A stretch of 64,000 nucleotides of DNA, taken from Siphonodentalium dalli (taxonomy: Eukaryota > Mollusca > Scaphopoda > Gadilida > Siphonodentaliidae). Every line of letters begins with the position of its first letter. The stretch's first letter is position 1. A program made the position numbers and the translations under genes. Shown here one piece after another: positions 28,901 through 55,900 of the stretch. The notes under the pieces were generated by a model. The model made no database searches, was not told the origin of the DNA, and saw only the letters and a program-made list of their open reading frames with translations. Location of the stretch: NCBI GenBank assembly GCA_032622095.1, contig CP136061.1, positions 186,068,369 through 186,132,368 of the forward strand. Direction: 5' to 3'.

Positions 28901-31900
28901 TTGGTATACGATGACTGAAGAACCATCCGAACCAATCAGAGTGCTCTATGGGCTGGATTTGTATCTGCTGTCATGGGCAGAGAAAATGTCAACAATTGCA
29001 GGTGTTATTAAACTTGCATTTAACAACATCGCAGGTGTTATTAAATGCAAGTTCAACTTCTGAAAAAGATTGAGTTTGGCAAATTGAAATTGAGTCATTG
29101 ACTCAAATGGATTATGGACTGATTCCGTAAGGCACAGTATCGGAATCAAACAAATATTGAGGAAATCTTTTGAATGCAACGAAATATTAAATTGTTTTCC
29201 CAAGATTTTTGGGGAACGTAAATTAAAGTTTTTGCGACCAGGTTATCGGTTCTTTGCCAACAATACTTTGCAATTTAAAAGACAAATTAATATGGAGTTT
29301 TGTTCACGTACAAGACTTATCGGTATCTGTATCGGATCGGCCGATAATTCTACTGAAAATATCGGCTATCGGCTTTTACCGATAACCCCCGTATCGTTAC
29401 ATCACTATTGGTAAGTTTATAAAAATGATATGTTATTGGTAAGTTTATAAAAATGATATGTTATTGGTAAGTTTATAAAAATTATATGTTGTTGGTAAGT
29501 TTATAAAAATTATATGTTATTGGTAAGTTTATAAAAATTATATGTTATTGGTAAGTTTATAAAAATTATATGTTATTGGTAAGTTTATAAAAATTATATG
29601 TTATTGGTAAGTTTATAAAAATTATATGTTATTGGTAAGTTTATAAACATCTGGATCATATTTCAGGTCAGATTTCTTTCATTGTTAAATAACAAAATCA
29701 ATGAAGTAATATTTAAATGGGAGATTGGCAATTGGGGGTCAAAATATGTAAGCAAATTAGTATTTGCAATTTATGACTAAAAAAATGTAAAGTATACCAA
29801 AATGTAATGAGATAACGACAAGAGTTACTCAGAAAAGAAATTTTACATTTTGTTTAACCATTTTGCTTTAAAATATAATTTTAGGTCCAATGAGCATAAA
29901 TCACAACTGATGAGTGAGATATATACCTTAATTTCTTTCTCAAACGGCTTAATGAAGGGAGAGCCTCGCATTGTCTGTGTTTTAACAATTTGATCATCAA
30001 GCATTGTCTGTATGTCGTCGAGAGAAGCCAGGATGGAGACACCAGAATCTCTGTATGCTGTGAGAACGAACGATATCGGGTCCCAATCCTCCATCATTTT
30101 CTTCATTCCCTTCTCCAGTGAGTGTTCCTGACAAAGAAGACATACATGTATACATGAATTTTATTTCAAACCTTACCTATAGACTGTTTTTCTTTATTTA
30201 ATGGATTATCCCATTCATACAATGGAATGGTCTATTATTCCTTTAATAATAGCAGAGGACTGACAATACAAGTGCAGAAGGAGTTATATTCATTGGAGGG
30301 AAATGTCCAGACAATAAGTTCAACAAAGGGCCAATGGCCGTTTGTTGAACTTATTATCTGAACATTTCTAAGGGATAACTACTCATCAATGAGTATTTAG
30401 TAAAGAAAAGGTAAATATATCTGCCTATCCCATTATCTAAAATTTTTCTCTTTCAATCTATTTCCCCACACAAAGAATGTGGGACAGCAAAAGTTACTAG
30501 ATACAATGTTCCAGAAAAGTTACTAGAATCAATGTTCCAGAAAAGATACTAGAATCAATGTTCCAGAAAAGTTAATAGATACAATGTTCCAGAAAAGTTA
30601 ATAGATACAATGTTCCAGAAAAGTTACTAGAATCAATGTTCCAGAAAAGTTAATAGATACAATGTTCCAGAAAAGTTACTAGAATCAATGTTCCAGAAAA
30701 GTTACTAGATACAATGTTCCAGAAAAGTTACTAGATACAATGTTCCAGAAAAGTTACTAGAATCAATGTTCCAGAAAAGTTACTAGAATCAATGTTCCAG
30801 AAAAGTTAATAGATACAATGTTCCAGAAAAGTTACTAGATACAATGTTCCAGAAAAGATACTAGATACAATGTTCCAGAAAAGTTAATAGATACAATGTT
30901 CCAGAAAAGTTACTAGAATCAATGTTCCAGAAAAGTTACTAGAATCAATGTTCCAGAAAAGTTAATAGATACAATGTTCCAGAAAAGTTACTAGATACAA
31001 TGTTCCAGAAAAGATACTAGATACAATGTTCCAGAAAAGATACTAGATACAATGTTCCAGAAAAGTTACTAGATACAATGTTCCAGAAAAGATACTAGAT
31101 ACAATGTTCCAGAAAAGTTAATAGATACAATGTTCCAGAAAAGTTACTAGATACAATGTTCCAGAAAAGTTACTAGATACAATGTTCCAGAAAAGATACT
31201 AGATACAATGTTCCAGAAAAGATACTAGATACAATGTTCCAGAAAAGTTACTAGATACAATGTTCCAGAAAAGATACTAGATACAATGTTCCAGAAAAGT
31301 TACTAGATACAATGTTCCAGAAAAGATACTAGATACAATGTTCCAGAAAAGTTACTAGATACAATGTTCCAGAAAAGATACTAGATACAATGTTCCAGAA
31401 AAGTTACTAGATACAATGTTCCAGAAAAGATACTAGATACAATGTTCCAGAAAAGTTACTAGATACAATGTTCCAGAAAAGATACTAGATACAATGTTCC
31501 AGAAAAGTTACTAGATACAATGTTCCAGAAAAGTTACTAGATACAATGTTCCAGAAAAGATACTAGATACAATGTTCCAGAAAAGTTACTAGATACAATG
31601 TTCCAGAAAAGATACTAGATACAATGTTCCAGAAAAGTTACTAGATACAATGTTCCAGAAAAGATACTAGATACAATGTTCCAGAAAAGATACTAGATAC
31701 AATGTTCCAGAAAAGTTACTAGATACAATGTTCCAGAAAAGTTACTAGATACAATGTTCCAGAAAAGTTACTAGATACAATGTTCCAGAAAAGTTACTAG
31801 ATACAATGTTCCAGAAAAGATACTAGATACAATGTTCCAGAAAAGATACTAGATACAATGTTCCAGAAAAGTTACTAGATACAATGTTCCAGAAAAGATA

Positions 31901-34900
31901 CTAGATACAATGTTCCAGAAAAGTTACTAGATACAATGTTCCAGAAAAGATACTAGATACAAAGTTCCAGAAAAGATACTAGATACAATGTTCCAGAAAA
32001 GTTACTAGATACAATGTTCCAGAAAAGTTACTAGATACAATGTTCCAGAAAAGATACTAGATACAATGTTCCAGAAAAGATACTAGATACAATGTTCCAG
32101 AAAAGTTACTAGATACAATGTTCCAGAAAAGATACTAGATACAATGTTCCAGAAAAGTTAATAGATACAATGTTCCAGAAAAGTTACTAGATACAATGTT
32201 CCAGAAAAGTTACTAGATACAATGTTCCAGAAAAGATACTAGATACAATGTTCCAGAAAAGTTAATAGATACAATGTTCCAGAAAAGTTACTAGATACAA
32301 TGTTCCAGAAAAGATACTAGATACAATGTTCCAGAAAAGTTAATAGATACAATGTTCCAGAAAAGTTACTGGATACAATGTTCCAGAAAAGTTACTAGAA
32401 TCAATGTTCCAGAAAAGTTACTAGAATCAATGTTCCAGAAAAGTTAATAGATACAATGTTCCAGAAAAGTTAATAGATACAATGTTCCAGAAAAGTTACT
32501 AGATACAATGTTCCAGAAAAGTTACTAGATACAATGTTCCAGAAAAGTTACTAGATACAATGTTCCAGAAAAGATACTAGATACAAAGTTCCAGAAAAGT
32601 TACTGGATACAATGTTCCAGAAAAGTTACTAGAATCAATGTTCCAGAAAAGTTAATAGATACAATGTTCCAGAAAAGTTACTAGATACAATGTTCCAGAA
32701 AAGTTAATAGATACAATGTTCCAGAAAAGTTACTAGATACAATGTTCCAGAAAAGTTACTAGAATCAATGTTCCAGAAAAGTTACTAGATACAATGTTCC
32801 AGAAAAGTTACTAGATACAATGTTCCAGAAAAGTTAATAGATACAATGTTCCAGAAAAGTTACTAGATACAATGTTCCAGAAAAGTTACTAGATACAATG
32901 TTCCAGAAAAGTTACTGGATACAATGTTCCAGAAAAGTTACTGGATACAATGTTCCAGAAAAGTTACTAGAATCAATGTTCCAGAAAAGTTACTAGATAC
33001 AATGTTCCAGAAAAGTTACTGGATACAATGTTCCAGAAAAGTTACTGGATACAATGTTCCAGAAAAGTTACTGGATACAATGTTCCAGAAAAGTTACTAG
33101 AATCAATGTTCCAGAAAAGTTAATAGATACAAAGTTCCAGAAAAGTTACTAGATACAATGTTCCAGAAAAGTTACTAGATACAATGTTCCAGAAAAGTTA
33201 CTAGATACAATGTTCCAGAAAAGTTACTAGATACAATGTTCCAGAAAAGTTACTAGATACAATGTTCCAGAAAAGTTACTAGATACAATGTTCCAGAAAA
33301 GTTACTGGATACAATGTTCCAGAAAAGTTACTGGATACAATGTTCCAGAAAAGTTACTGGATACAATGTTCCAGAAAAGTTACTAGAATCAATGTTCCAG
33401 AAAAGTTAATAGATACAAAGTTCCAGAAAAGATACTAGATACAATGTTCCAGAAAAGTTACTAGATACAATGTTCCAGAAAAGTTACTAGATACAATGTT
33501 CCAGAAAAGATACTAGATACAAAGTTCCAGAAAAGTTACTGGATACAATGTTCCAGAAAAGTTACTAGAATCAATGTTCCAGAAAAGTTACTAGAATCAA
33601 TGTTCCAGAAAAGTTAATAGATACAATGTTCCAGAAAAGTTACTAGATACAATGTTCCAGAAAAGATACTAGATACAAAGTTCCAGAAAAGTTACTGGAT
33701 ACAATGTTCCAGAAAAGTTACTAGAATCAATGTTCCAGAAAAGTTACTAGAATCAATGTTCCAGAAAAGTTAATAGATACAATATTCCAGAAAAGTTACT
33801 AGAATCAATGTTCCAGAAAAGTTACTAGAATCAATGTTCCAGAAAAGTTAATAGATACAATGTTCCAGAAAAGTTACTAGATACAATGTTCCAGAAAAGT
33901 TACTAGAATCAATGTTCCAGAAAAGTTAATAGATACAATGTTCCAGAAAAGTTAATAGATACAATGTTCCAGAAAAGTTAATAGATACAATGTTCCAGAA
34001 AAGTTAATAGATACAATGTTCCAGAAAAGTTAATAGATACAATGTTCCAGAAAAGTTAATAGATACAATGTTCCAGAAAAGTTAATAGATACAATGTTCC
34101 AGAAAAGTTAATAGATACAATGTTCCAGAAAAGTTACTAGAATCAATGTTCCAGAAAAGTTAATAGATACAATGTTCCAGAAAAGTTAATAGATACAATG
34201 TTCCAGAAAAGTTACTAGATACAATGGTCCAGAAAAGATACTAGATACAATGTTACAGAAAAGTTAATAGATACAATGTTCCAGAAAAGTGAATAGATAC
34301 AATGTTCCAGAAAAGTTAATAGATACAATGTTCCAGAAAAGTTAATAGATACAATGTTCCAGAAAAGTTAATAGATACAATGTTCCAGAAAAGATACTAG
34401 ATACAATGTTCCAGAAAAGTTACTAGATACAATGTTCCAGAAAAGTTACTAGAATCAATGTTCCAGAAAAGTTACTAGATACAATGTTCCAGAAAAGTTG
34501 ATAGATACAATGTTCCAGAAAAGTTAATAGATACAATGTTCCAGAAAAGATACTAGATACAATGTTCCAGAAAAGATACTAGATACAAAGTTCCAGAAAA
34601 GTTACTAGAATCAATGTTCCAGAAAAGTTACTAGAATCAATGTTCCAGAAAAGTTAATAGATACAATATTCCAGAAAAGTTACTAGAATCAATGTTCCAG
34701 AAAAGTTACTAGAATCAATGTTCCAGAAAAGTTAATAGATACAATGTTCCAGAAAAGTTACTAGATACAATGTTCCAGAAAAGTTACTAGAATCAATGTT
34801 CCAGAAAAGTTAATAGATACAATGTTCCAGAAAAGTTAATAGATACAATGGTCCAGAAAAGATACTAGATACAATGTTACAGAAAAGTTAATAGATACAA

Positions 34901-37900
34901 TGTTCCAGAAAAGTGAATAGATACAATGTTCCAGAAAAGTTAATAGATACAATGTTCCAGAAAAGTTAATAGATACAATGTTCCAGAAAAGTTAATAGAT
35001 ACAATGTTCCAGAAAAGATACTAGATACAATGTTCCAGAAAAGATACTAGATACAAAGTTCCAGAAAAGTTACTGGATACAATGTTCCAGAAAAGTTACT
35101 AGAATCAATGTTCCAGAAAAGTTAATAGATACAATGTTCCAGAAAAGATACTAGATACAAAGTTCCAGAAAAGATACTAGATACAAAGTTCCAGAAAAGT
35201 TAATAGATACAATGTTCCAGAAAAGTTAATAGATACAATGTTCCAGAAAAGTTACTAGAATCAATGTTCCAGAAAAGTTAATAGATACAATGTTCCAGAA
35301 AAGTTAATAGATACAATGTTCCAGAAAAGATACTAGATACAAAGTTCCAGAAAAGTTACTGGATACAATGTTCCAGAAAAGTTACTAGATACAATGTTCC
35401 AGAAAAGTTACTAGAATCAATGTTCCAGAAAAGTTACTAGATACAATGTTCCAGAAAAGTTAATAGATACAATGTTCCAGAAAAGTTAATAGATACAATG
35501 TTCCAGAAAAGTTACTAGAATCAATGTTCCAGAAATGTTACTAGAATCAATGTTCCAGAAAAGTTACTAGATACAATGTTCCAGAAAAGTTACTAGATAC
35601 AATGTTCCAGAAAAGTTAATAGATACAATGTTCCAGAAAAGTTACTAGATACAATGTTCCAGAAAAGTTAATAGATACAATGTTCCAAAAAAGATACTAG
35701 ATACAATGTTCCAGAAAAGTTACTAGATACAATGTTCCAGAAAAGTTACTAGATACAATGTTCCAGAAAAGTTACTAGAATCAATGTTCCAGAAAACTTA
35801 CTAGATACAATGTTCCAGAAAAGTTAATAGATACAATGTTCCAGAAAAGTTGATAGATACAATGTTCCAGAAAAGTTAATAGATACAATGTTCCAGAAAA
35901 GTTAATAGATACAATGTTCCAGAAAAGATACTAGATACAATGTTCCAGAAAAGTTACTAGATACAATGTTCCAGAAAAGTTACTAGAATCAATGTTCCAG
36001 AAAAGTTAATAGATACAATGTTCCAGAAAAGTTGATAGATACAATGTTCCAGAAAAGTTAATAGATACAATGTTCCAGAAAAGTTAATAGATACAATGTT
36101 CCAGAAAAGATACTAGATACAATGTTCCAGAAAAGATACTAGATACAAAGTTCCAGAAAAGTTACTGGATACAATGTTCCAGAAAAGTTACTAGAATCAA
36201 TGTTCCAGAAAAGTTAATAGATACCATGTTCCAGAAAAGATACTAGATACAAAGTTCCAGAAAAGATACTAGATACAAAGTTCCAGAAAAGTTAATAGAT
36301 ACAATGTTCCAGAAAAGTTAATAGATACAATGTTCCAGAAAAGTTACTAGAATCAATGTTCCAGAAAAGTTAATAGATACAATGTTCCAGAAAAGTTAAT
36401 AGATACAATGTTCCAGAAAAGATACTAGATACAAAGTTCCAGAAAAGTTACTGGATACAATGTTCCAGAAAAGTTTTAAATATATACAATGTTCCAGAAA
36501 AGTTACTAGAATCAATGTTCCAGAAAAGTTACTAGATACAATGTTCCAGAAAAGTTTTAAATAGATACAATGTTCCAGAAAAGTTACTAGATACAATGTT
36601 CCAGAAAAGTTACTAGAATCAATGTTCCAGAAAAGTTACTAGAATCAATGTTCCAGAAAAGTTACTAGATACAATGTTCCAGAAAAGTTACTAGATACAA
36701 TGTTCCAGAAAAGTTACTAGAATCAATGTTCCAGAAAAGTTAATAGATACAATGTTCCAGAAAAGTTACTAGAATCAATGTTCCAGAAAAGTTAATAGAT
36801 ACAATGTTCCAGAAAAGTTACTAGATACAATGTTCCAGAAAAGTTACTAGATACAATGTTCCAGAACAGTTACTAGAATCAATGTTCCAGAAAAGTTAAT
36901 AGATACAATGTTCCAGAAAAGTTAATAGATACAATGTTCCAGAAAAGTTAATAGATACAATGTTCCAGAAAAGTTACTAGAATCAATGTTCCAGAAAAGT
37001 TAATAGATACAATGTTCCAGAAAAGTTACTAGAATCAATGTTCCAGAAAAGTTAATAGATACAATGTTCCAGAAAAGTTACTAGATACAATGTTCCAGAA
37101 AAGTTACTAGATACAATGTTCCAGAACAGTTACTAGAATCAATGTTCCAGAAAAGTTAATAGATACAATGTTCCAGAAAAGTTAATAGATACAATGTTCC
37201 AGAAAAGTTAATAGATACAATGTTCCAGAAAAGTTACTAGAATCAATGTTCCAGAAAAGTTAATAGATACAATGTTCCAGAAAAGTTACTAGAATCAATG
37301 TTCCAGAAAAGTTAATAGATACAATGTTCCAGAAAAGTTACTAGATACAATGTTCCAGAAAAGTTACTAGATACAATGTTCCAGAAAAGATACTAGATAC
37401 AATGTTCCAGAAAAGTTACTAGATACAATGTTCCAGAAAAGATACTAGATACAATGTTCCAGAAAAGATACTAGATACAATGTTCCAGAAAAGTTACTAG
37501 ATACAATGTTCCAGAAAAGTTACTAGATACAATGTTCCAGAAAAGTTACTAGATACAATGTTCCAGAAAAGTTACTAGATACAATGTTCCAGAAAAGATA
37601 CTAGATACAATGTTCCAGAAAAGATACTAGATACAATGTTCCAGAAAAGTTACTAGATACAATGTTCCAGAAAAGATACTAGATACAATGTTCCAGAAAA
37701 GTTACTAGATACAATGTTCCAGAAAAGATACTAGATACAAAGTTCCAGAAAAGATACTAGATACAATGTTCCAGAAAAGTTACTAGATACAATGTTCCAG
37801 AAAAGTTACTAGATACAATGTTCCAGAAAAGATACTAGATACAATGTTCCAGAAAAGATACTAGATACAATGTTCCAGAAAAGTTACTAGATACAATGTT

Positions 37901-40900
37901 CCAGAAAAGATACTAGATACAATGTTCCAGAAAAGTTAATAGATACAATGTTCCAGAAAAGTTACTAGATACAATGTTCCAGAAAAGTTACTAGATACAA
38001 TGTTCCAGAAAAGATACTAGATACAATGTTCCAGAAAAGTTAATAGATACAATGTTCCAGAAAAGTTACTAGATACAATGTTCCAGAAAAGATACTAGAT
38101 ACAATGTTCCAGAAAAGTTAATAGATACAATGTTCCAGAAAAGTTACTGGATACAATGTTCCAGAAAAGTTACTAGAATCAATGTTCCAGAAAAGTTACT
38201 AGAATCAATGTTCCAGAAAAGTTAATAGATACAATGTTCCAGAAAAGTTAATAGATACAATGTTCCAGAAAAGTTACTAGATACAATGTTCCAGAAAAGT
38301 TACTAGATACAATGTTCCAGAAAAGTTACTAGATACAATGTTCCAGAAAAGATACTAGATACAAAGTTCCAGAAAAGTTACTGGATACAATGTTCCAGAA
38401 AAGTTACTAGAATCAATGTTCCAGAAAAGTTAATAGATACAATGTTCCAGAAAAGTTACTAGATACAATGTTCCAGAAAAGTTAATAGATACAATGTTCC
38501 AGAAAAGTTACTAGATACAATGTTCCAGAAAAGTTACTAGAATCAATGTTCCAGAAAAGTTACTAGATACAATGTTCCAGAAAAGTTACTAGATACAATG
38601 TTCCAGAAAAGTTAATAGATACAATGTTCCAGAAAAGTTACTAGATACAATGTTCCAGAAAAGTTACTAGATACAATGTTCCAGAAAAGTTACTGGATAC
38701 AATGTTCCAGAAAAGTTACTGGATACAATGTTCCAGAAAAGTTACTAGAATCAATGTTCCAGAAAAGTTACTAGATACAATGTTCCAGAAAAGTTACTGG
38801 ATACAATGTTCCAGAAAAGTTACTGGATACAATGTTCCAGAAAAGTTACTGGATACAATGTTCCAGAAAAGTTACTAGAATCAATGTTCCAGAAAAGTTA
38901 ATAGATACAAAGTTCCAGAAAAGTTACTAGATACAATGTTCCAGAAAAGTTACTAGATACAATGTTCCAGAAAAGTTACTAGATACAATGTTCCAGAAAA
39001 GTTACTAGATACAATGTTCCAGAAAAGTTACTAGATACAATGTTCCAGAAAAGTTACTAGATACAATGTTCCAGAAAAGTTACTGGATACAATGTTCCAG
39101 AAAAGTTACTGGATACAATGTTCCAGAAAAGTTACTGGATACAATGTTCCAGAAAAGTTACTAGAATCAATGTTCCAGAAAAGTTAATAGATACAAAGTT
39201 CCAGAAAAGATACTAGATACAATGTTCCAGAAAAGTTACTAGATACAATGTTCCAGAAAAGTTACTAGATACAATGTTCCAGAAAAGATACTAGATACAA
39301 AGTTCCAGAAAAGTTACTGGATACAATGTTCCAGAAAAGTTACTAGAATCAATGTTCCAGAAAAGTTACTAGAATCAATGTTCCAGAAAAGTTAATAGAT
39401 ACAATGTTCCAGAAAAGTTACTAGATACAATGTTCCAGAAAAGATACTAGATACAAAGTTCCAGAAAAGTTACTGGATACAATGTTCCAGAAAAGTTACT
39501 AGAATCAATGTTCCAGAAAAGTTACTAGAATCAATGTTCCAGAAAAGTTAATAGATACAATATTCCAGAAAAGTTACTAGAATCAATGTTCCAGAAAAGT
39601 TACTAGAATCAATGTTCCAGAAAAGTTAATAGATACAATGTTCCAGAAAAGTTACTAGATACAATGTTCCAGAAAAGTTACTAGAATCAATGTTCCAGAA
39701 AAGTTAATAGATACAATGTTCCAGAAAAGTTAATAGATACAATGTTCCAGAAAAGTTAATAGATACAATGTTCCAGAAAAGTTAATAGATACAATGTTCC
39801 AGAAAAGTTAATAGATACAATGTTCCAGAAAAGTTAATAGATACAATGTTCCAGAAAAGTTAATAGATACAATGTTCCAGAAAAGTTAATAGATACAATG
39901 TTCCAGAAAAGTTACTAGAATCAATGTTCCAGAAAAGTTAATAGATACAATGTTCCAGAAAAGTTAATAGATACAATGTTCCAGAAAAGTTACTAGATAC
40001 AATGGTCCAGAAAAGATACTAGATACAATGTTACAGAAAAGTTAATAGATACAATGTTCCAGAAAAGTGAATAGATACAATGTTCCAGAAAAGTTAATAG
40101 ATACAATGTTCCAGAAAAGTTAATAGATACAATGTTCCAGAAAAGTTAATAGATACAATGTTCCAGAAAAGATACTAGATACAATGTTCCAGAAAAGTTA
40201 CTAGATACAATGTTCCAGAAAAGTTACTAGAATCAATGTTCCAGAAAAGTTACTAGATACAATGTTCCAGAAAAGTTGATAGATACAATGTTCCAGAAAA
40301 GTTAATAGATACAATGTTCCAGAAAAGATACTAGATACAATGTTCCAGAAAAGATACTAGATACAAAGTTCCAGAAAAGTTACTAGAATCAATGTTCCAG
40401 AAAAGTTACTAGAATCAATGTTCCAGAAAAGTTAATAGATACAATATTCCAGAAAAGTTACTAGAATCAATGTTCCAGAAAAGTTACTAGAATCAATGTT
40501 CCAGAAAAGTTAATAGATACAATGTTCCAGAAAAGTTACTAGATACAATGTTCCAGAAAAGTTACTAGAATCAATGTTCCAGAAAAGTTAATAGATACAA
40601 TGTTCCAGAAAAGTTAATAGATACAATGGTCCAGAAAAGATACTAGATACAATGTTACAGAAAAGTTAATAGATACAATGTTCCAGAAAAGTGAATAGAT
40701 ACAATGTTCCAGAAAAGTTAATAGATACAATGTTCCAGAAAAGTTAATAGATACAATGTTCCAGAAAAGTTAATAGATACAATGTTCCAGAAAAGATACT
40801 AGATACAATGTTCCAGAAAAGATACTAGATACAAAGTTCCAGAAAAGTTACTGGATACAATGTTCCAGAAAAGTTACTAGAATCAATGTTCCAGAAAAGT

Positions 40901-43900
40901 TAATAGATACAATGTTCCAGAAAAGATACTAGATACAAAGTTCCAGAAAAGATACTAGATACAAAGTTCCAGAAAAGTTAATAGATACAATGTTCCAGAA
41001 AAGTTAATAGATACAATGTTCCAGAAAAGTTACTAGAATCAATGTTCCAGAAAAGTTAATAGATACAATGTTCCAGAAAAGTTAATAGATACAATGTTCC
41101 AGAAAAGATACTAGATACAAAGTTCCAGAAAAGTTACTGGATACAATGTTCCAGAAAAGTTACTAGATACAATGTTCCAGAAAAGTTACTAGAATCAATG
41201 TTCCAGAAAAGTTACTAGATACAATGTTCCAGAAAAGTTAATAGATACAATGTTCCAGAAAAGTTAATAGATACAATGTTCCAGAAAAGTTACTAGAATC
41301 AATGTTCCAGAAATGTTACTAGAATCAATGTTCCAGAAAAGTTACTAGATACAATGTTCCAGAAAAGTTACTAGATACAATGTTCCAGAAAAGTTAATAG
41401 ATACAATGTTCCAGAAAAGTTACTAGATACAATGTTCCAGAAAAGTTAATAGATACAATGTTCCAAAAAAGATACTAGATACAATGTTCCAGAAAAGTTA
41501 CTAGATACAATGTTCCAGAAAAGTTACTAGATACAATGTTCCAGAAAAGTTACTAGAATCAATGTTCCAGAAAACTTACTAGATACAATGTTCCAGAAAA
41601 GTTAATAGATACAATGTTCCAGAAAAGTTGATAGATACAATGTTCCAGAAAAGTTAATAGATACAATGTTCCAGAAAAGTTAATAGATACAATGTTCCAG
41701 AAAAGATACTAGATACAATGTTCCAGAAAAGTTACTAGATACAATGTTCCAGAAAAGTTACTAGAATCAATGTTCCAGAAAAGTTAATAGATACAATGTT
41801 CCAGAAAAGTTGATAGATACAATGTTCCAGAAAAGTTAATAGATACAATGTTCCAGAAAAGTTAATAGATACAATGTTCCAGAAAAGATACTAGATACAA
41901 TGTTCCAGAAAAGATACTAGATACAAAGTTCCAGAAAAGTTACTGGATACAATGTTCCAGAAAAGTTACTAGAATCAATGTTCCAGAAAAGTTAATAGAT
42001 ACCATGTTCCAGAAAAGATACTAGATACAAAGTTCCAGAAAAGATACTAGATACAAAGTTCCAGAAAAGTTAATAGATACAATGTTCCAGAAAAGTTAAT
42101 AGATACAATGTTCCAGAAAAGTTACTAGAATCAATGTTCCAGAAAAGTTAATAGATACAATGTTCCAGAAAAGTTAATAGATACAATGTTCCAGAAAAGA
42201 TACTAGATACAAAGTTCCAGAAAAGTTACTGGATACAATGTTCCAGAAAAGTTTTAAATATATACAATGTTCCAGAAAAGTTACTAGAATCAATGTTCCA
42301 GAAAAGTTACTAGATACAATGTTCCAGAAAAGTTTTAAATAGATACAATGTTCCAGAAAAGTTACTAGATACAATGTTCCAGAAAAGTTACTAGAATCAA
42401 TGTTCCAGAAAAGTTACTAGAATCAATGTTCCAGAAAAGTTACTAGATACAATGTTCCAGAAAAGTTACTAGATACAATGTTCCAGAAAAGTTACTAGAA
42501 TCAATGTTCCAGAAAAGTTAATAGATACAATGTTCCAGAAAAGTTACTAGAATCAATGTTCCAGAAAAGTTAATAGATACAATGTTCCAGAAAAGTTACT
42601 AGATACAATGTTCCAGAAAAGTTACTAGATACAATGTTCCAGAACAGTTACTAGAATCAATGTTCCAGAAAAGTTAATAGATACAATGTTCCAGAAAAGT
42701 TAATAGATACAATGTTCCAGAAAAGTTAATAGATACAATGTTCCAGAAAAGTTACTAGAATCAATGTTCCAGAAAAGTTAATAGATACAATGTTCCAGAA
42801 AAGTTACTAGAATCAATGTTCCAGAAAAGTTAATAGATACAATGTTCCAGAAAAGTTACTAGATACAATGTTCCAGAAAAGTTACTAGATACAATGTTCC
42901 AGAACAGTTACTAGAATCAATGTTCCAGAAAAGTTAATAGATACAATGTTCCAGAAAAGTTAATAGATACAATGTTCCAGAAAAGTTAATAGATACAATG
43001 TTCCAGAAAAGTTACTAGAATCAATGTTCCAGAAAAGTTAATAGATACAATGTTCCAGAAAAGTTACTAGAATCAATGTTCCAGAAAAGTTAATAGATAC
43101 AATGTTCCAGAAAAGTTACTAGATACAATGTTCCAGAAAAGTTACTAGATACAATGTTCCAGAAAAGTTACTAGAATCAATGTTCCAGAAAAGTTACTAG
43201 ATACAATGTTCCAGAAAAGTTACTAGATACAATGTTCCAGAAAAGTTAATAGATACAATGTTCCAGAAAAGTTAATAGATACAATGTTCCAGAAAAGTTA
43301 ATAGATACAATGTTCCAGAAAAGTTACTAGAATCAATGTTCCAGAAAAGTTAATAGATACAATGTTCCAGAAAAGTTACTAGAATCAATGTTCCAGAAAA
43401 GTTAATAGATACAATGTTCCAGAAAAGTTACTAGATACAATGTTCCAGAAAAGTTAATAGATACAATGTTCCAGAAAAGTTACTAGATACAATGTTCCAG
43501 AAAAGTTACTAGAATCAATGTTCCAGAAAAGTTACTAGAATCAATGTTCCAGAAAAGTTGATAGATACAATGTTCCAGAAAAGTTAATAGATACAATGTT
43601 CCAGAAAAGTTAATAGATACAATGTTCCAGAAAAGTTAATAGATACAATGTTCCAGAAAAGTTACTAGAATCAATGTTCCAGAAAAGTTAATAGATACAA
43701 TGTTCCAGAAAAGTTAATAGATACAATGTTCCAGAAAAGTTAATAGATACAATGTTCCAGAAAAGTTACTAGAATCAATGTTCCAGAAAAGTTAATAGAT
43801 ACAATGTTCCAGAAAAGTTACTAGAATCAATGTTCCAGAAAAGTTAATAGATACAATGTTCCAGAAAAGTTACTAGATACAATGTTCCAGAAAAGTTACT

Positions 43901-46900
43901 AGATACAATGTTCCAGAACAGTTACTAGAATCAATGTTCCAGAAAAGTTAATAGATACAATGTTCCAGAAAAGTTAATAGATACAATGTTCCAGAAAAGT
44001 TAATAGATACAATGTTCCAGAAAAGTTACTAGAATCAATGTTCCAGAAAAGTTAATAGATACAATGTTCCAGAAAAGTTACTAGAATCAATGTTCCAGAA
44101 AAGTTAATAGATACAATGTTCCAGAAAAGTTACTAGATACAATGTTCCAGAAAAGTTACTAGATACAATGTTCCAGAAAAGTTACTAGAATCAATGTTCC
44201 AGAAAAGTTACTAGATACAATGTTCCAGAAAAGTTAATAGATACAATGTTCCAGAAAAGTTACTAGATACAATGTTCCAGAAAAGTTACTAGATACAATG
44301 TTCCAGAACAGTTACTAGAATCAATGTTCCAGAAAAGTTAATAGATACAATGTTCCAGAAAAGTTACTAGATACAATGTTCCAGAAAAGTTACTAGATAC
44401 AATGTTCCAGAACAGTTACTAGAATCAATGTTCCAGAAAAGTTACTAGATACAATGTTCCAGAACAGTTACTAGAATCAATGTTCCAGAAAAGTTACTAG
44501 ATACAATGTTCCAGAAAAGTTACTAGATACAATGTTCCAGAAAAGTTACTAGATACAATGTTCCAGAAAAGTTACTAGATACAATGTTCCAGAACAGTTA
44601 CTAGAATCAATGTTCCAGAAAAGTTACTAGATACAATGTTCCAGAAAAGTTACTAGATACAATGTTCCAGAAAAGTTACTAGATACAATGTTCCAGAAAA
44701 GTTACTAGATACAATGTTCCAGAAAAGTTACTAGATACAATGTTCCAGAACAGTTACTAGAATCAATGTTCCAGAAAAGTTACTAGATACAATGTTCCAG
44801 AAAAGTTACTAGATACAATGTTCCAGAAAAGTTACTAGATACAATGTTCCAGAAAAGTTACTAGATACAATGTTCCAGAAAAGTTACTAGATACAATGTT
44901 CCAGAAAAGTTACTAGATACAATGTTCCAGAACAGTTACTAGAATCAATGTTCCAGAAAAGTTACTAGATACAATGTTCCAGAAAAGTTACTAGATACAA
45001 TGTTCCAGAACAGTTACTAGAATCAATGTTCCAGAAAAGTTACTAGATACAATGTTCCAGAAAAGTTACTAGATACAATGTTCCAGAAAAGTTACTAGAT
45101 ACAATGTTCCAGAAAAGTTACTAGATACAATGTTCCAGAACAGTTACTAGAATCAATGTTCCAGAAAAGTTACTAGATACAATGTTCCAGAAAAGTTACT
45201 AGATACAATGTTCCAGAACAGTTACTAGAATCAATGTTCCAGAAAAGTTACTAGATACAATGTTCCAGAAAAGTTACTAGATACAATGTTCCAGAAAAGT
45301 TACTAGATACAATGTTCCAGAAAAGTTACTAGATACAATGTTCCAGAACAGTTACTAGAATCAATGTTCCAGAAAAGTTAATAGATACAATGTTCCAGAA
45401 AAGTTAATAGATACAATGTTCCAGAAAAGTTAATAGATACAATGTTCCAGAAAAGTTACTAGAATCAATGTTCCAGAAAAGTTAATAGATACAATGTTCC
45501 AGAAAAGTTACTAGAATCAATGTTCCAGAAAAGTTAATAGATACAATGTTCCAGAAAAGTTACTAGATACAATGTTCCAGAAAAGTTAATAGATACAATG
45601 TTCCAGAAAAGTTACTAGATACAATGTTCCAGAAAAGTTACTAGAATCAATGTTCCAGAAAAGTTACTAGAATCAATGTTCCAGAAAAGTTGATAGATAC
45701 AATGTTCCAGAAAAGTTAATAGATACAATGTTCCAGAAAAGTTAATAGATACAATGTTCCAGAAAAGTTAATAGATACAATGTTCCAGAAAAGTTACTAG
45801 AATCAATGTTCCAGAAAAGTTAATAGATACAATGTTCCAGAAAAGTTACTAGAATCAATGTTCCAGAAAAGTTAATAGATACAATGTTCCAGAAAAGTTA
45901 CTAGAATCAATGTTCCAGAAAAGTTAATAGATACAATGTTCCAGAAAAGTTACTAGATACAATGTTCCAGAAAAGTTACTAGATACAATGTTCCAGAAAA
46001 GTTACTAGAATCAATGTTCCAGAAAAGTTACTAGAATCAATGTTCCAGAAAAGTTGATAGATACAATGTTCCAGAAAAGTTAATAGATACAATGTTCCAG
46101 AAAAGTTAATAGATACAATGTTCCAGAAAAGTTAATAGATACAATGTTCCAGAAAAGTTAATAGATACAATGTTCCAGAAAAGTTAATAGATACAATGTT
46201 CCAGAAAAGTTAATAGATACAATGTTCCAGAAAAGTTAATAGATACAATGTTCCAGAAAAGTTACTAGATACAATGTTCCAGAAAAGTTACTAGAATCAA
46301 TGTTCCAGAAAAGTTAATAGATACAATGTTCCAGAAAAGTTACTAGATACAATGTTCCAGAAAAGATACTAGATACAATGTTACAGAAAAGTTACTAGAT
46401 ACAATGTTCCAGAAAAGTTACTGGATACAATGTTCCAGAAAAGTTACTAGAATCAATGTTCCAGAAAAGTTACTAGAATCAATGTTCCAGAAAAGTTACT
46501 AGATACAATGTTCCAGAAAAGTTACTAGATACAATGTTACAGAAAAGTTACTGGATACAATGTTCCAGAAAAGTTACTAGAATCAATGTTCCAGAAAAGT
46601 TACTAGAATCAATGTTCCAGAAAAGTTACTAGATACAATGTTGCAGAAAAGTTACTAGATACAATGTTCCAGAAAAGATACTAGATACAATGTTGCAGAA
46701 AAGTTACTAGAATCAATGTTCCAGAAAAGTTAATAGATACAATGTTCCAGAAAAGTTAATAGATACAATGTTGCAGAAAAGTTAATAGATACAATGTTGC
46801 AGAAAAGTTACTAGATACAATGTTCCAGAAAAGATACTAGATACAATGTTCCAGAAAAGATACTAGATACAATGTTACAGAAAAGTTAATAGATACAATG

Positions 46901-49900
46901 TTCCAGAAAAGTTAATAGATACAATGTTCCAGAAAAGTTAATAGATACAATGTTCCAGAAAAGATACTAGATACAATGTTACAGAAAAGTTAATAGATAC
47001 AATGTTCCAGAAAAGTTAATAGATACAATGTTCCAGAAAAGTTAATAGATACAATGTTCCAGAAAAGATACTAGATACAATGTTACAGAAAAGTTAATAG
47101 ATACAATGTTCCAGAAAAGTTAATAGATACAATGTTCCAGAAAAGTGAATAGATACAATGTTCCAGAAAAGTTAATAGATACAATGTTCAAGAAAAGTTA
47201 ATAGATACAATGTTCCAGAAAAGATACTAGATACAATGTTCCAGAAAAGTTACTAGATACAATGTTCCAGAAAAGTTACTAGATACAATGTTCCAGAAAA
47301 GTTGATAGATACAATGTTCCAGAAAAGTTAATAGATACAATGTTCCAGAAAAGATACTAGATACAATGTTCCAGAAAAGATACTAGATACAATGTTCCAG
47401 AAAAGATACTAGATACAAAGTTCCAGAAAAGTTACTGGATACAATGTTCCAGAAAAGTTACTAGAATCAATGTTCCAGAAAAGTTAATAGATACAATGTT
47501 CCAGAAAAGATACTAGATACAAAGTTCCAGAAAAGATACTAGATACAAAGTTCCAGAAAAGTTAATAGATACAATGTTCCAGAAAAGTTAATAGATACAA
47601 TGTTCCAGAAAAGTTACTAGAATCAATGTTCCAGAAAAGTTAATAGATACAATGTTCCAGAAAAGTTAATAGATACAATGTTCCAGAAAAGATACTAGAT
47701 ACAAAGTTCCAGAAAAGTTACTGGATACAATGTTCCAGAAAAGTTACTAGATACAATGTTCCAGAAAAGTTACTAGAATCAATGTTCCAGAAAAGTTACT
47801 AGATACAATGTTCCAGAAAAGTTAATAGATACAATGTTCCAGAAAAGTTAATAGATACAATGTTCCAGAAAAGTTACTAGAATCAATGTTCCAGAAATGT
47901 TACTAGAATCAATGTTCCAGAAAAGTTACTAGATACAATGTTCCAGAAAAGTTACTAGATACAATGTTCCAGAAAAGTTAATAGATACAATGTTCCAGAA
48001 AAGTTACTAGAATCAATGTTCCAGAAAAGTTAATAGATACAATGTTCCAGAAAAGTTAATAGATACAATGTTCCAGAAAAGATACTAGATACAATGTTCC
48101 AGAAAAGTTACTAGATACAATGTTCCAGAAAAGTTACTAGAATCAATGTTCCAGAAAAGTTAATAGATACAATGTTCCAGAAAAGTTAATAGATACAATG
48201 TTCCAGAAAAGTTAATAGATACAATGTTCCAGAAAAGTTAATAGATACAATGTTCCAGAAAAGTTAATAGATACAATGTTCCAGAAAAGTTAATAGATAC
48301 AATGTTCCAGAAAAGTTACTAGAATCAATGTTCCAGAAAAGTTAATAGATACAATGTTCCAGAAAAGTTAATAGATACAATGTTCCAGAAAAGTTAATAG
48401 ATACAATGTTCCAGAAAAGTTAATAGATACAATGTTCCAGAAAAGTTACTAGATACAATGTTCCAGAAAAGTTACTAGATACAATGTTCCAGAAAAGTTA
48501 CTAGATACAATGTTCCAGAAAAGTTACTAGATACAATGTTCCAGAAAAGATACTAGATACAATGTTCCAGAAAAGTTACTAGAATCAATGTTCCAGAAAA
48601 GTTAATAGATACAATGTTCCAGAAAAGTTACTAGATACAATGTTCCAGAAAAGATACTAGATACAATGTTACAGAAAAGTTACTGGATACAATATTCCAG
48701 AAAAGTTACTAGAAACAATGTTCCAGAAAAGTTACTAGAATCAATGTTCCAGAAAAGTTAATAGATACAATGTTCCAGAAAAGTTACTAGATACAATGTT
48801 CCAGAAAAGTTACTAGAATCAATGTTCCAGAAAAGTTAATAGATACAATGTTCCAGAAAAGTTAATAGATACAATGTTCCAGAAAAGATACTAGATACAA
48901 TGTTCCAGAAAAGTTAATAGATACAATGTTCCAGAAAAGTTAATAGATACAATGTTCCAGAAAAGTTACTAGATACAATGTTCCAGAAAAGTTACTAGAT
49001 ACAATGTTCCAGAAAAGATACTAGATACAATGTTACAGAAAAGTTACTGGATACAATATTCCAGAAAAGTTACTAGAAACAATGTTCCAGAAAAGTTACT
49101 AGAATCAATGTTCCAGAAAAGTTAATAGATACAATGTTCCAGAAAAGTTACTAGATACAATGTTCCAGAAAAGTTACTAGAATCAATGTTCCAGAAAAGT
49201 TAATAGATACAATGTTCCAGAAAAGTTAATAGATACAATGTTCCAGAAAAGATACTAGATACAATGTTCCAGAAAAGTTAATAGATACAATGTTCCAGAA
49301 AAGTTAATAGATACAATGTTCCAGAAAAGTTACTAGATACAATGTTCCAGAAAAGTTAATAGATACAATGTTCCAGAAAAGTTAATAGATACAATGTTCC
49401 AGAAAAGTTACTAGAATCAATGTTCCAGAAAAGTTAATAGATACAATGTTCCAGAAAAGTTACTAGATACAATGTTCCAGAAAAGTTAATAGATACAATG
49501 TTCCAGAAAAGTTACTAGATACAATGTTCCAGAAAAGTTACTAGAATCAATGTTCCAGAAAAGTTAATAGATACAATGTTCCAGAAAAGTTACTAGAATC
49601 AATGTTCCAGAAAAGTTAATAGATACAATGTTCCAGAAAAGTTACTAGATACAATGTTCCAGAAAAGTTAATAGATACAATGTTCCAGAAAAGTTACTAG
49701 ATACAATGTTCCAGAAAAGTTACTAGAATCAATGTTCCAGAAAAGTTAATAGATACAATGTTCCAGAAAAGTTACTAGATACAATGTTCCAGAAAAGATA
49801 CTAGAATCAATGTTCCAGAAAAGTTAATAGATACAATGTTCCAGAAAAGTTACTAGATACAATGTTCCAGAAAAGTTACTAGAATCAATGTTCCAGAAAA

Positions 49901-52900
49901 GTTAATAGATACAATGTTCCAGAAAAGTTACTAGAATCAATGTTCCAGAAAAGTTAATAGATACAATGTTCCAGAAAAGTTACTAGAATCAATGTTCCAG
50001 AAAAGTTACTAGATACAATGTTCCAGAAAAGTTACTAGAATCAATGTTCCAGAAAAGTTAATAGATACAATGTTCCAGAAAAGTTACTAGATACAATGTT
50101 CCAGAAAAGTTAATAGATACAATGTTCCAGAAAAGTTACTAGATACAATGTTCCAGAAAAGTTACTAGAATCAATGTTCCAGAAAAGTTAATAGATACAA
50201 TGTTCCAGAAAAGTTACTAGATACAATGTTCCAGAAAAGTTAATAGATACAATGTTCCAGAAAAGTTACTAGATACAATGTTCCAGAAAAGTTACTAGAA
50301 TCAATGTTCCAGAAAAGTTAATAGATACAATGTTCCAGAAAAGTTACTAGAATCAATGTTCCAGAAAAGTTAATAGATACAATGTTCCAGAAAAGTTACT
50401 AGAATCAATGTTCCAGAAAAGTTACTAGATACAATGTTCCAGAAAAGTTACTAGAATCAATGTTCCAGAAAAGTTAATAGATACAATGTTCCAGAAAAGT
50501 TACTAGATACAATGTTCCAGAAAAGTTAATAGATACAATGTTCCAGAAAAGATACTAGATACAATGTTCCAGAAAAGTTACTAGAATCAATGTTCCAGAA
50601 AAGTTAATAGATACAATGTTCCAGAAAAGTTACTAGAATCAATGTTCCAGAAAAGTTAATAGATACAATGTTCCAGAAAAGTTACTAGATACAATGTTCC
50701 AGAAAAGTTACTAGATACAATGTTCCAGAAAAGTTACTAGAATCAATGTTCCAGAAAAGTTAATAGATACAATGTTCCAGAAAAGTTACTAGAATCAATG
50801 TTCCAGAAAAGTTAATAGATACAATGTTCCAGAAAAGTTACTAGAATCAATGTTCCAGAAAAGTTACTAGATACAATGTTCCAGAAAAGTTACTAGAATC
50901 AATGTTCCAGAAAAGTTAATAGATACAATGTTCCAGAAAAGTTACTAGATACAATGTTCCAGAAAAGTTAATAGATACAATGTTCCAGAAAAGATACTAG
51001 ATACAATGTTCCAGAAAAGTTACTAGAATCAATGTTCCAGAAAAGTTAATAGATACAATGTTCCAGAAAAGTTACTAGAATCAATGTTCCAGAAAAGTTA
51101 ATAGATACAATGTTCCAGAAAAGTTACTAGATACAATGTTCCAGAAAAGTTAATAGATACAATGTTCCAGAAAAGTTACTAGATACAATGTTCCAGAAAA
51201 GTTACTAGAATCAATGTTCCAGAAAAGTTAATAGATACAATGTTCCAGAAAAGTTACTAGATACAATGTTCCAGAAAAGATACTAGATACAATGTTACAG
51301 AAAAGTTACTGGATACAATATTCCAGAAAAGTTACTAGAATCAATGTTCCAGAAAAGTTAATAGATACAATGTTCCAGAAAAGTTACTAGATACAATGTT
51401 CCAGAAAAGTTACTAGAATCAATGTTCCAGAAAAGTTAATAGATACAATGTTCCAGAAAAGTTAATAGATACAATGTTCCAGAAAAGATACTAGATACAA
51501 TGTTACAGAAAAGTTACTGGATACAATATTCCAGAAAAGTTACTAGAATCAATGTTCCAGAAAAGTTACTAGAATCAATGTTCCAGAAAAGTTACTAGAA
51601 TCAATGTTCCAGAAAAGTTACTAGATACAATGTTCCAGAAAAGTTACTAGATACAATGTTCCAGAAAAGTTACTGGATACAATATTCCAGAAAAGTTACT
51701 AGAATCAATGTTCCAGAAAAGTTAATAGATACAATGTTCCAGAAAAGTTACTAGATACAATGTTCCAGAAAAGTTACTAGAATCAATGTTCCAGAAAAGT
51801 TAATAGATACAATGTTCCAGAAAAGTTAATAGATACAATGTTCCAGAAAAGATACTAGATACAATGTTACAGAAAAGTTACTGGATACAATATTCCAGAA
51901 AAGTTACTAGAATCAATGTTCCAGAAAAGTTACTAGAATCAATGTTCCAGAAAAGTTACTAGAATCAATGTTCCAGAAAAGTTACTAGATACAATGTTCC
52001 AGAAAAGTTACTAGATACAATGTTCCAGAAAAGTTACTAGATACAATGTTCCAGAAAAGTTACTAGATACAATGTTCCAGAAAAGGAGCCTATTAACCAG
52101 CTCAATAGAGATGATTTTGCTATTTCACTTATTGGAATAAAACCGGCAAAAAGGATGCCACTCTAATCTAGCTTAAAGCCATGTTATGTACTTGTTTGGG
52201 TGCGTAAAACTGATAAGTTAGTATACAGGCACTACGCCAACTGGAGGAATGTAACGTTCTACTAACATCGCCGAAATTCTGAAGCTAAACGACCCTACCA
52301 CTCCATAGAAAACATCGTCTGAACTACGCTCAATTGAAAATATTTACTACTCGATTCGGGATGCATCTATCTGCGATAAACTAACGAAAATGATTTCCCC
52401 ATCGAGAGTCACTGCAATTAATTAATATATAAGAATGACGGTGTGCATTGTCAATTTGGATATAAATTTGTAAAAATTACTACTTTGAACAAGATTATTC
52501 TCTATTTCTATTCGATCACCCTGCTGGAGTGTTTCACATCACTTTAAAGGAAACCTTGAGATAGATCTAGGAGTTAGTGCATATAAGATGGAAGAAACCA
52601 ACTGATGAGCTATAAATTATAGAACTGAAAATACCTTCGTTGCTGCTGCACTGATCCCTTCAAAGTCCGACATGAAGTTTTCAAGGTTCAGTTTAAGAAC
52701 CTTCCTCAGTGTACTACCAGAATCAGGAGTCAAATCAAAACCAGCAATCTCCGACATTTGGGACCAATGACGAGGACGCATTCCTCTGTTACACATGATA
52801 GAAATGACTGGAATATTCTCCTTGAAGTCTCGCATTTGATCCATGACTGTTGTCGTGACGCTGAGAGCTTGAGGTGGATGGTATTCTTCGTCCTTCTCAT

Positions 52901-55900
52901 CATCACTGAGGGGGTTACCATCCTCATCAACTTTCCTTTTCTTTTTCTTATCTCTTTCACGTTCCTCTTGTTCCATCATCATCTTTTTCACCTTCTGTTT
53001 AAAAACCTTCTCAATTTTGTGCATGTCTCGAATATAATCTTCCACTTCCTCTTGAACGACTTCTGAATCCAGTTCAAGGAATGCACCATCCATAGCCCTA
53101 GTCAACATAGAATTGTGACATATAACCAGTGATATAACTGTCAAATATCAGATTTAAAATTGCATTGGTAAAGGTGGCATTGGATTTGCAAATTGCAATA
53201 TATTGTTATATTTAACATATTGTAACACTACAATTTTACTATGAGAAAATAAAAAAAGAAAGACATTTTCGTGAGATGAATTGCTGCTACACATGCAAGT
53301 ATCCATAATTAAATATATTTTACTGAATTGGGCAAATTAGGCAAGTAAATCTTTACATATATTGACAAATTAAAAATATTAAAATTAATGGACAAACTCA
53401 CTTTTTCTCAGCTCTCTGCCACTTCAGAACAACATTGAAGAGTCGGGCAAATGGATCGACTGCTACAGAAATATCATCAACATCTGGGTATGTAGAAACA
53501 GGATACTTAAAAAGCACCTCCTCCTGCAATATAAAAGAGAAAATTAATATCAAGGACCATGATATTTAGTGATAATTAAGAACTTAGTTTTGTTTCTATT
53601 AAGGTTATTTAGTTATAACCAAAAAGTTTGAAGTGTTATAGTAAATTTGTCTTCAAACTTTTCGGATATAACTCATAACCGTAATTGTAACAAAGAATTA
53701 GTTCTTATAATTTAATCTGGCAATCGCAGGAGAACTCTCATAAGTAGAAGCTAGAAGTAAAATAAAGTTGAAAGCCAACGCACTGTCACTCAGACAACTA
53801 ATTATTGATTGCTCAAGTGGCCTCATCAATTGATCGTTTTGATTGGCTAATGGCAAGTGATCATGCAATTGCATTGCAGGTGTTCGTGTTTCTGATATAT
53901 TTAAGCTGTTTTTAGTTTCATTTCTTTGCAAATATTAGCAAAAGTATTGTTGATTTCTCTTGGTAATTGTGCACCAAAGCAGTATGGTTATTGGCAGGGC
54001 AGTACTACCCGAAGGACAGAACTGATGTTAATGCAAAGAAAAAAGAAAATTTCCATTTTTGAAATTTTAAATACAAGTATTGAATTGTGACCATTTGAAC
54101 CCCATTGGTCCAATGGAAGATGGAAGCTATCATCTGTTCCATAAATAAGGTACCTTGTTTATGAAGGAAATATGTTCCTGAGCATCGGATATTCGCTTGA
54201 GAAGTGCCTTGATGTCCTGATTGTACTGTTGCATCATGTCTAACTCTCCGTAATCATTGAATTCGTCAACACGGTGCCGCATCTTCTCCAGTTCTATCAT
54301 CACCTTCTCTCTCTTGTCGAGTAGTGCCTTTTCTGCCTTCTGCTTCGAGCTCTCTACCAGCTGGATGTAATAGGTGAAATAACCATTGTAAGTAAAGTAC
54401 AGACTGCTTCTAAGATATATAATTAATAGGAAAGTGATTTGGAAAATACAAAACTCCCATATATCAGAGACATTTTATGCAATAATTGGATTCCAAGAGT
54501 ACATTCTTTGTTACACTCCGCCATTCCTATAATCCGTGAATTAAAAAAACAGACATACAAGTTACAAGGTTCATCCAGGCACATACAGGGCTTGATTTGT
54601 CATGTGTGAGGGTGCTTTTATTTTGGTTTTCCGGTTTCATGGTTGAAGCGAAAGTAATTTACGTTGTGTGTCGTCAACGGAATGCGCATGGAACGCATGT
54701 TCCATAGCATGTTCCATACGGGTGTGTAAATATAGAACAACAGGAACACTGTAATTCTAGGAACAAGCATGTAATTAAATTTACTAAAGCACGTTATATC
54801 TTGAAAAGAACCATAGATGTGTCATCTGATCTTCACAGTTCACACATGACATACATGGACAAATTATTCTTATTACATTTAATATGAGAGGCAATACTAA
54901 ATCAATGATTTACATTATCTCATGGCATAAGTTATAATTGGTAGTTCTAAGCACTTGGTGGACATGTATATTATCACATAATTTTCTTTATAATTAAGAA
55001 AGTTAAATCCTAGTGCCTAGAAGGGTGACTGAATAATTCAGATATATTTCCTTTCATTCCTGATAAAAATTTAGGAGTTCTAACAGACATGTTATTTTGT
55101 ATTCATCCATGAAGTTGCAGTTACAAATGCCATATTTTACAAGTTTGCATATCTGAACTTCTGTACTATTTCCATACAGCTAACACGGAACCTACCTCAT
55201 CATTTCTATCAAATATTGGATTGATTCTCTTCGGCCATGTCAGAGCTTCACAGTTCAGTTCAATCTCTTCAGGTGTAAACATGAAGACATCAATAAGGTA
55301 TGCAAGTCTATCTTTGGATTGCTGAAAACATAAGAAATAAAGAATAGTTGATAAACTCCGCATTTTAATTGTAAAATTGAGGATAAGCATGCTATCTGGT
55401 GTGATTTTGGGACGTTTTACCAGGGACGCGAGCCGCTGGAAAGTGCAAAATCAGATATTTTTCATCAAAAACACAAACTGATAAACATCCCAAAACCACA
55501 CTAGACAGCATGTTTAATCCCCATTCTAATTCACATTGTCCAAAAAATATTTCTATTATAGCCATAAGAATCTGCCAAAGAGTTGCGGAACATGACATGA
55601 CTGAAAATATTTGTAACCAAGTCTCCTGGAAAATGTATTCCAGTCCACGAAAATATAGTTCCATAGTTTGAATAGAAACAAATGGAGCCATCCAAAGAGA
55701 TCCATGAAATCCATTCTTTATGATGACAAATTGACATTGGTTATATATAAATTACATTAAGAAAGCAAGACAACCTAATGAGCTATGCATCTTATTGATT
55801 GAGCAACTGGGGTCCCTATATGATACTGCAAAGTTTACCAATCAACATAAAAACATGAAGAGAAATGGCGTTTGGATCATTATTCCTGCTCATACCAGCT

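Follow-up and report, generated by a model that had tools for sequence, protein, structure and literature searches.

A probable giant minisatellite, in effect confined to one locus, within an intron of a DNAH12 gene

How does a 21.6-kb run of one 26-bp unit come to lie inside a gene for a ciliary motor, and does it do anything there? A preliminary description of this locus in Siphonodentalium dalli had placed a satellite array between two in-phase coding exons of a dynein gene and had suggested, as a possible parallel, the giant satellite-bearing introns of Y-linked dynein genes in Drosophila. We analyzed the window, a 64-kb stretch of DNA free of N (C1:186068369-186132368), within its 2.23-Gb genome assembly in 9 contigs of 190-301 Mb. 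We consider it highly probable that the array is a single-locus giant minisatellite, or variable number tandem repeat (VNTR), which was born and expanded within the DNAH12 intron where it is now found. The features discussed below are listed in Table 1.

Table 1. Coordinates of the array, its host gene and its neighborhood in the window.
Feature	Window position	Strand	Basis and remarks
26-bp tandem array, 830 units and a 5-bp partial unit (AAAAG)	30489..52085	.	TRF and segmentation
Perfect tandem duplication in the array, 222 units	31561..43167	.	offset 5,778 bp, exact run 5,829 bp
Host intron, 22,507 bp, GT-AG, phase 0	30128..52634	-	splice sites read from sequence; 96% array
DNAH12 exon upstream of the array, DHC_N2	52635..53097	-	protein match, Pfam
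DNAH12 exon downstream of the array, DHC_N2	29927..30127	-	protein match, Pfam
Upstream exon region	62.1-62.3 kb	-	DNAH12 residues 446-504; single protein search
Upstream exon region	56.2-56.6 kb	-	DNAH12 residues 505-552, weak (E 6.3e-5; DNAH7 5.4e-5, equal fit)
Upstream exon region	54.1-54.5 kb	-	DNAH12 residues 584-665; single protein search
Downstream exon region	26.8-27.2 kb	-	DNAH12 residues 910-994; single protein search
Second array, 42 bp x 46, other intron of the DNAH12 gene	57465..59388	.	TRF
Left flank: dispersed MITE-like element with internal inverted repeat	30189..30417	.	74-88% identical to 39 other places (40 of 3,638 candidates scored)
Right flank: dispersed element of ~375 bp	52173..52547	.	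93-96% identical to 39 other places (40 of 6,850 candidates scored)

The host gene lies on the minus strand, and its exons on both sides of the array are collinear with DNAH12, an axonemal dynein. When the two exons flanking the array were joined, they aligned with DNAH12 residues 704-912 (PDB 9fqr, 8j07) without a gap at the junction, with an E-value of 3.5e-68 for DNAH12 (9fqr) followed by 5.2e-52 for DNAH7. These two exons had been called exon 7 and exon 8, which are labels only: the match of the first exon detected in the window starts as far along as residue 446. The donor of the intron reads AAG/GTATTT and the acceptor TTTGTCAG/GAACAC (slash, splice site). With the GT-AG ends, phase 0 and the gap-free DNAH12 junction, the placing of the array within a single intron of a ciliary dynein gene is borne out, and splicing across this intron is predicted from the sequence. 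That the array marks a misjoin of unrelated loci, the outcome against which the preliminary description had set its reading, appears unlikely because the exons on both sides are collinear with DNAH12. A Pfam search of ten frames assigned six to dynein families and gave no match for the other four. Further along the same strand, at C1:185964961-185987260, Dynein_C matches reach the end of the profile; their place and strand suggest that they belong to the same gene, which would then span ~166 kb or more. In two paralogues, the intron boundary appeared to lie a few residues further on. This was read by eye from open frames with the splice sites not fixed, and does not date the intron.

The array is one uninterrupted head-to-tail run (TRF: 830.2 copies, 93% matches, score 36877) of a unit with the consensus AAAAGTTACTAGATACAATGTTCCAG. 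Segmentation gave 826 full units of 26 bp and 4 of 29 bp before the terminal stub, 21,597 bp altogether or 95.96% of the host intron. The preliminary description of about 830 units in a continuous array, forming a single 21.6-kb feature, therefore stands, as does its end coordinate; its start moves by one base from 30488 to 30489. The four frames of 77-79 aa found in the array, among frames of at least 60 aa, each repeat the unit and were judged non-coding, and no family reached the gathering threshold in an Rfam scan of the whole window. The sense strand of the array has neither AATAAA nor ATTAAA. It carries 549 AG and 442 branch-point-like motifs, which might affect splicing. Folding of a 10-unit sense RNA was slightly better than that of its shuffles, a weak signal (z -2.13; 5 of 200 shuffles equally good).

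With up to 3 mismatches, the 26-mer had 828 matches in the whole genome, 828 forward and 0 reverse, of which 826 were in the array and the other 2 outside the window. A 46-mer from the array had 385 matches genome-wide, all 385 in the window. Satellite DNA occupies many loci or forms major arrays and lies in heterochromatin, and this unit occupies in effect one locus; the genome-wide search for the 26-mer that the preliminary description had proposed thus speaks against its word satellite in the sense of a family. A giant intronic minisatellite or VNTR, on the other hand, has tandem units of ~7-100 bp at one locus within an intron, with a copy number that varies between individuals. The 26-bp unit, with 2 of its 828 matches outside the window, and the intronic position, as read from the sequence, agree with this, and the array is in effect a single-locus giant minisatellite.

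The order of the unit variants records how the array grew. Among the 826 units of 26 bp, 17 of the 26 positions vary. There are 29 unit types, with the 5-bp stub included; 746 of the 830 units belong to six of them, which are told apart by positions 6, 9, 11 and 19 together with a double change at 14-15. Adjacent blocks that match perfectly comprise 2, 4, 5, 6, 7, 8, 10, 14, 17 and 222 units, and an LZ parse of the unit order required 169 blocks as compared with 323-340 in 20 unit shuffles. No run of identical units exceeds 8, so that single-unit slippage is not visible now. When the second copy of the 222-unit block was removed, 11 types occurred once among the remaining 608 units (~15.8 kb), and therefore the typical unit would have been copied recently on the mutation scale. 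Given the variation at 17 positions and the copying in blocks, the largest being the 222-unit duplication without a mismatch, the array appears to be young or to have a fast turnover.

Other tandem arrays are present nearby. The unit of the 42-bp array had 43 matches in the genome with up to 3 mismatches, all of them within that array, whose intron lies between the exons matching DNAH12 residues 446-504 and 505-552. Another array (28 bp x 8.6, 98% matches) lies at 29406-29647, in the first intron downstream of the one that holds the giant array. Elsewhere in the window, 500-2700 and 11100-13450 have a higher GC content (up to ~0.5) and frames that look alike by eye; they are perhaps two copies of one mobile element. 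For a genome background, we sampled 26 stretches (at 30 and 90 Mb on nine contigs and at 150 Mb on eight), 224 kb in total without N. Tandem repeats of period at least 7 made up 11.5% of the sampled bases, and arrays of at least 500 bp made up 5.5%. Arrays of this length were present in 10 of the 26 stretches, many of them being 2-9 copies of a long unit. The largest short-unit array in the sample was 2,391 bp and ran to within 3 bp of the sample edge. A 55-bp unit from a sampled array was matched 26 times where it had been sampled and twice on the opposite strand ~10 Mb away on the same contig. Because arrays of at least 500 bp with a unit below 60 bp were found in 4 of the 26 stretches, the kind of array is ordinary in this genome while its size stands out, although samples of 8-10 kb cannot gauge how rare 20 kb is.

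Part of this size might be due to assembly, that is, the exact 5,778-bp duplication, or more, might be an artefact. We regard such inflation, which is compatible with a minisatellite, as unlikely. The duplication does extend over 5,829 bp without a mismatch, as against 654 bp for the second-longest exact run of the array and an identity of ~0.95 or less at the same offset outside it. The exact run, however, exceeds the offset by only 51 bp, which would be far below a typical long-read overlap, and a pair of alleles left unpurged should differ at some sites; even if one copy were removed, 608 units would be left. Least probable of all, with hardly any weight in our judgment, is that the array is part of a dispersed satellite family or was brought in by a mobile element. 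Dispersed elements do flank it on both sides, but most of their scored matches end ~60-70 bp before the array and 80-87 bp after it, for which reason we rejected these elements as its origin, and the unit itself is almost absent elsewhere.

Could the array instead be a functional device? As in the Y-loop genes of Drosophila, it might delay transcription of DNAH12 or need special RNA-binding proteins in sperm precursors. The host is an axonemal dynein heavy-chain gene, and in the accessible part of one report kl-3 and kl-5, whose introns are rich in satellite, require two RNA-binding proteins to be expressed (PMC6508621). Megabase-scale satellite, Y linkage and a testis-specific expression program mark the gigantic introns of that class, however, and here there are 21.6 kb of array, or ~13% of the gene if the downstream Dynein_C matches are included. 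The few variants and the fast turnover of the units also argue against a functional device. In favor of such a device, the gap holding the array (22,492 bp) ranks first among 61 profile-adjacent DHC_N2 gaps in 21 clusters, where the next largest is 7,927 bp and the median 1,097 bp. Among 41 profile-adjacent Dynein_C gaps, one on the strand and stretch of the DNAH12 gene measures 14,349 bp and the largest, on C8, 86,092 bp. Such gaps between profile matches shrink if a small exon was missed; if none was missed on C8, intron size alone is not extreme here. No array of at least 500 bp was found in the 7.9-kb dynein gap or in 10 kb of a 10.9-kb gap, the latter not being profile-adjacent (62 positions apart) and probably hiding an exon. 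The 86-kb gap, read in two 8-kb pieces, was mostly not array there and contained one 1.7-kb array of a 30-bp unit. Because two long gaps are without such arrays and the 86-kb gap has one, large arrays do occur in dynein introns but do not characterize them. On these grounds, the parallel with Y-linked dynein genes drawn in the preliminary description was not sustained: we found no support for a Y-loop-like role and hold a functional device to be very improbable. It is just as doubtful that the array is a fast-evolving, length-polymorphic element that tunes dynein output in sperm or cilia, with alleles differing in DNAH12 expression, as a small analogue of a Y-loop born of a private minisatellite.

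The dynein matches gave two further observations. DHC_N2 sets with identical scores lie on opposite strands at C3:24987083-24989876 and C3:57827067-57829861, with a similar set at C6:62039052-62043673, and may represent a recent duplication or an assembly duplicate. On one strand at C5:102.19-102.62 Mb, there are several dynein heavy-chain genes or fragments.

For the minisatellite grown in place, which we prefer, the following history can be proposed. In one model, a minisatellite is born when slippage occurs between two short direct repeats. At its end the array repeats its own first 5 bases, as the 42-bp array does its first 4, both of which fit such a birth. In the DNAH12 intron, slippage would have duplicated one 26-bp stretch that had AAAAG as a short direct repeat at its two ends (AAAAG...AAAAG). 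Blocks of 2 to 17 units, and once of 222, would then have been duplicated in tandem many times, so that the array grew and a handful of unit variants spread; the blocks themselves are observed, and slippage, unequal exchange or repair synthesis are candidate mechanisms. Its excision along with the intron, and a sense strand free of AATAAA and ATTAAA, would explain why the array has been tolerated. Against this account stands the size of the array, ~9 times that of the largest sampled one, although the samples were unable to measure larger ones. The two matches outside the window, the shortness of the runs of identical units, the AG and branch-point-like motifs and the slightly better folding of the sense RNA also count against it.

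Most likely, the only consequence of the array is a longer gene. Individuals probably differ in array length; the present one comes from one assembly. We rate it as a new, large example of an already known kind of repeat, and the array alone shows no new function. As a gap-free, very large minisatellite that is essentially private and sits in the gene of a ciliary motor, with a duplication history that can still be read, it is useful for learning about the growth of such arrays and the intron load that a gene can bear. Among the papers listed on tandem repeats in DNAH12 introns, where the topic was infertility, and on large intronic VNTRs, molluscan intronic arrays, satellites in introns or euchromatin and minisatellite birth, we found no description of this dynein-intron array.

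Among known systems, we compared it with three, each through the accessible parts of the reports. The Y-linked genes kl-3 and kl-5 share tandem repeats in dynein heavy-chain introns (PMC6508621, PMC11207136). Their introns, however, hold megabases of simple satellite (PMC6508621) under a dedicated expression program, in contrast to one 21.6-kb single-locus array in DNAH12. In the oyster genome, satellite-like tandem arrays dispersed by Helentron elements likewise occur genome-wide, beyond heterochromatin (PMC7492417), but they are carried to many places by mobile elements whereas the 26-bp array is at one locus.

The closest known system is TRACT, a 30-bp VNTR of 3-30+ kb in an intron of human CACNA1C (PMC13131567). 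The two share a unit of ~30 bp, hundreds of units or more in one intron, common variants one base apart and growth from tracts of units. The gene and the unit are different, the longest reported run of identical units in TRACT is 26 as compared with 8 here, and the perfect 222-unit block duplication visible in the dynein intron is a further difference from what is described of TRACT (PMC13131567). Long alleles of TRACT are reported to go with lower expression in fibroblasts and testis (PMC13131567), and because of this an effect of the array on DNAH12 expression is possible. TRACT varies in length between people, yet in the accessible part of the report nothing points to its being unstable today in the germline or in somatic tissue (PMC13131567), which tempers the expectation that the dynein-intron array may still be changing. 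In what is accessible of its description, TRACT provides a direct precedent for both the unit size and the length of such an array in one intron.
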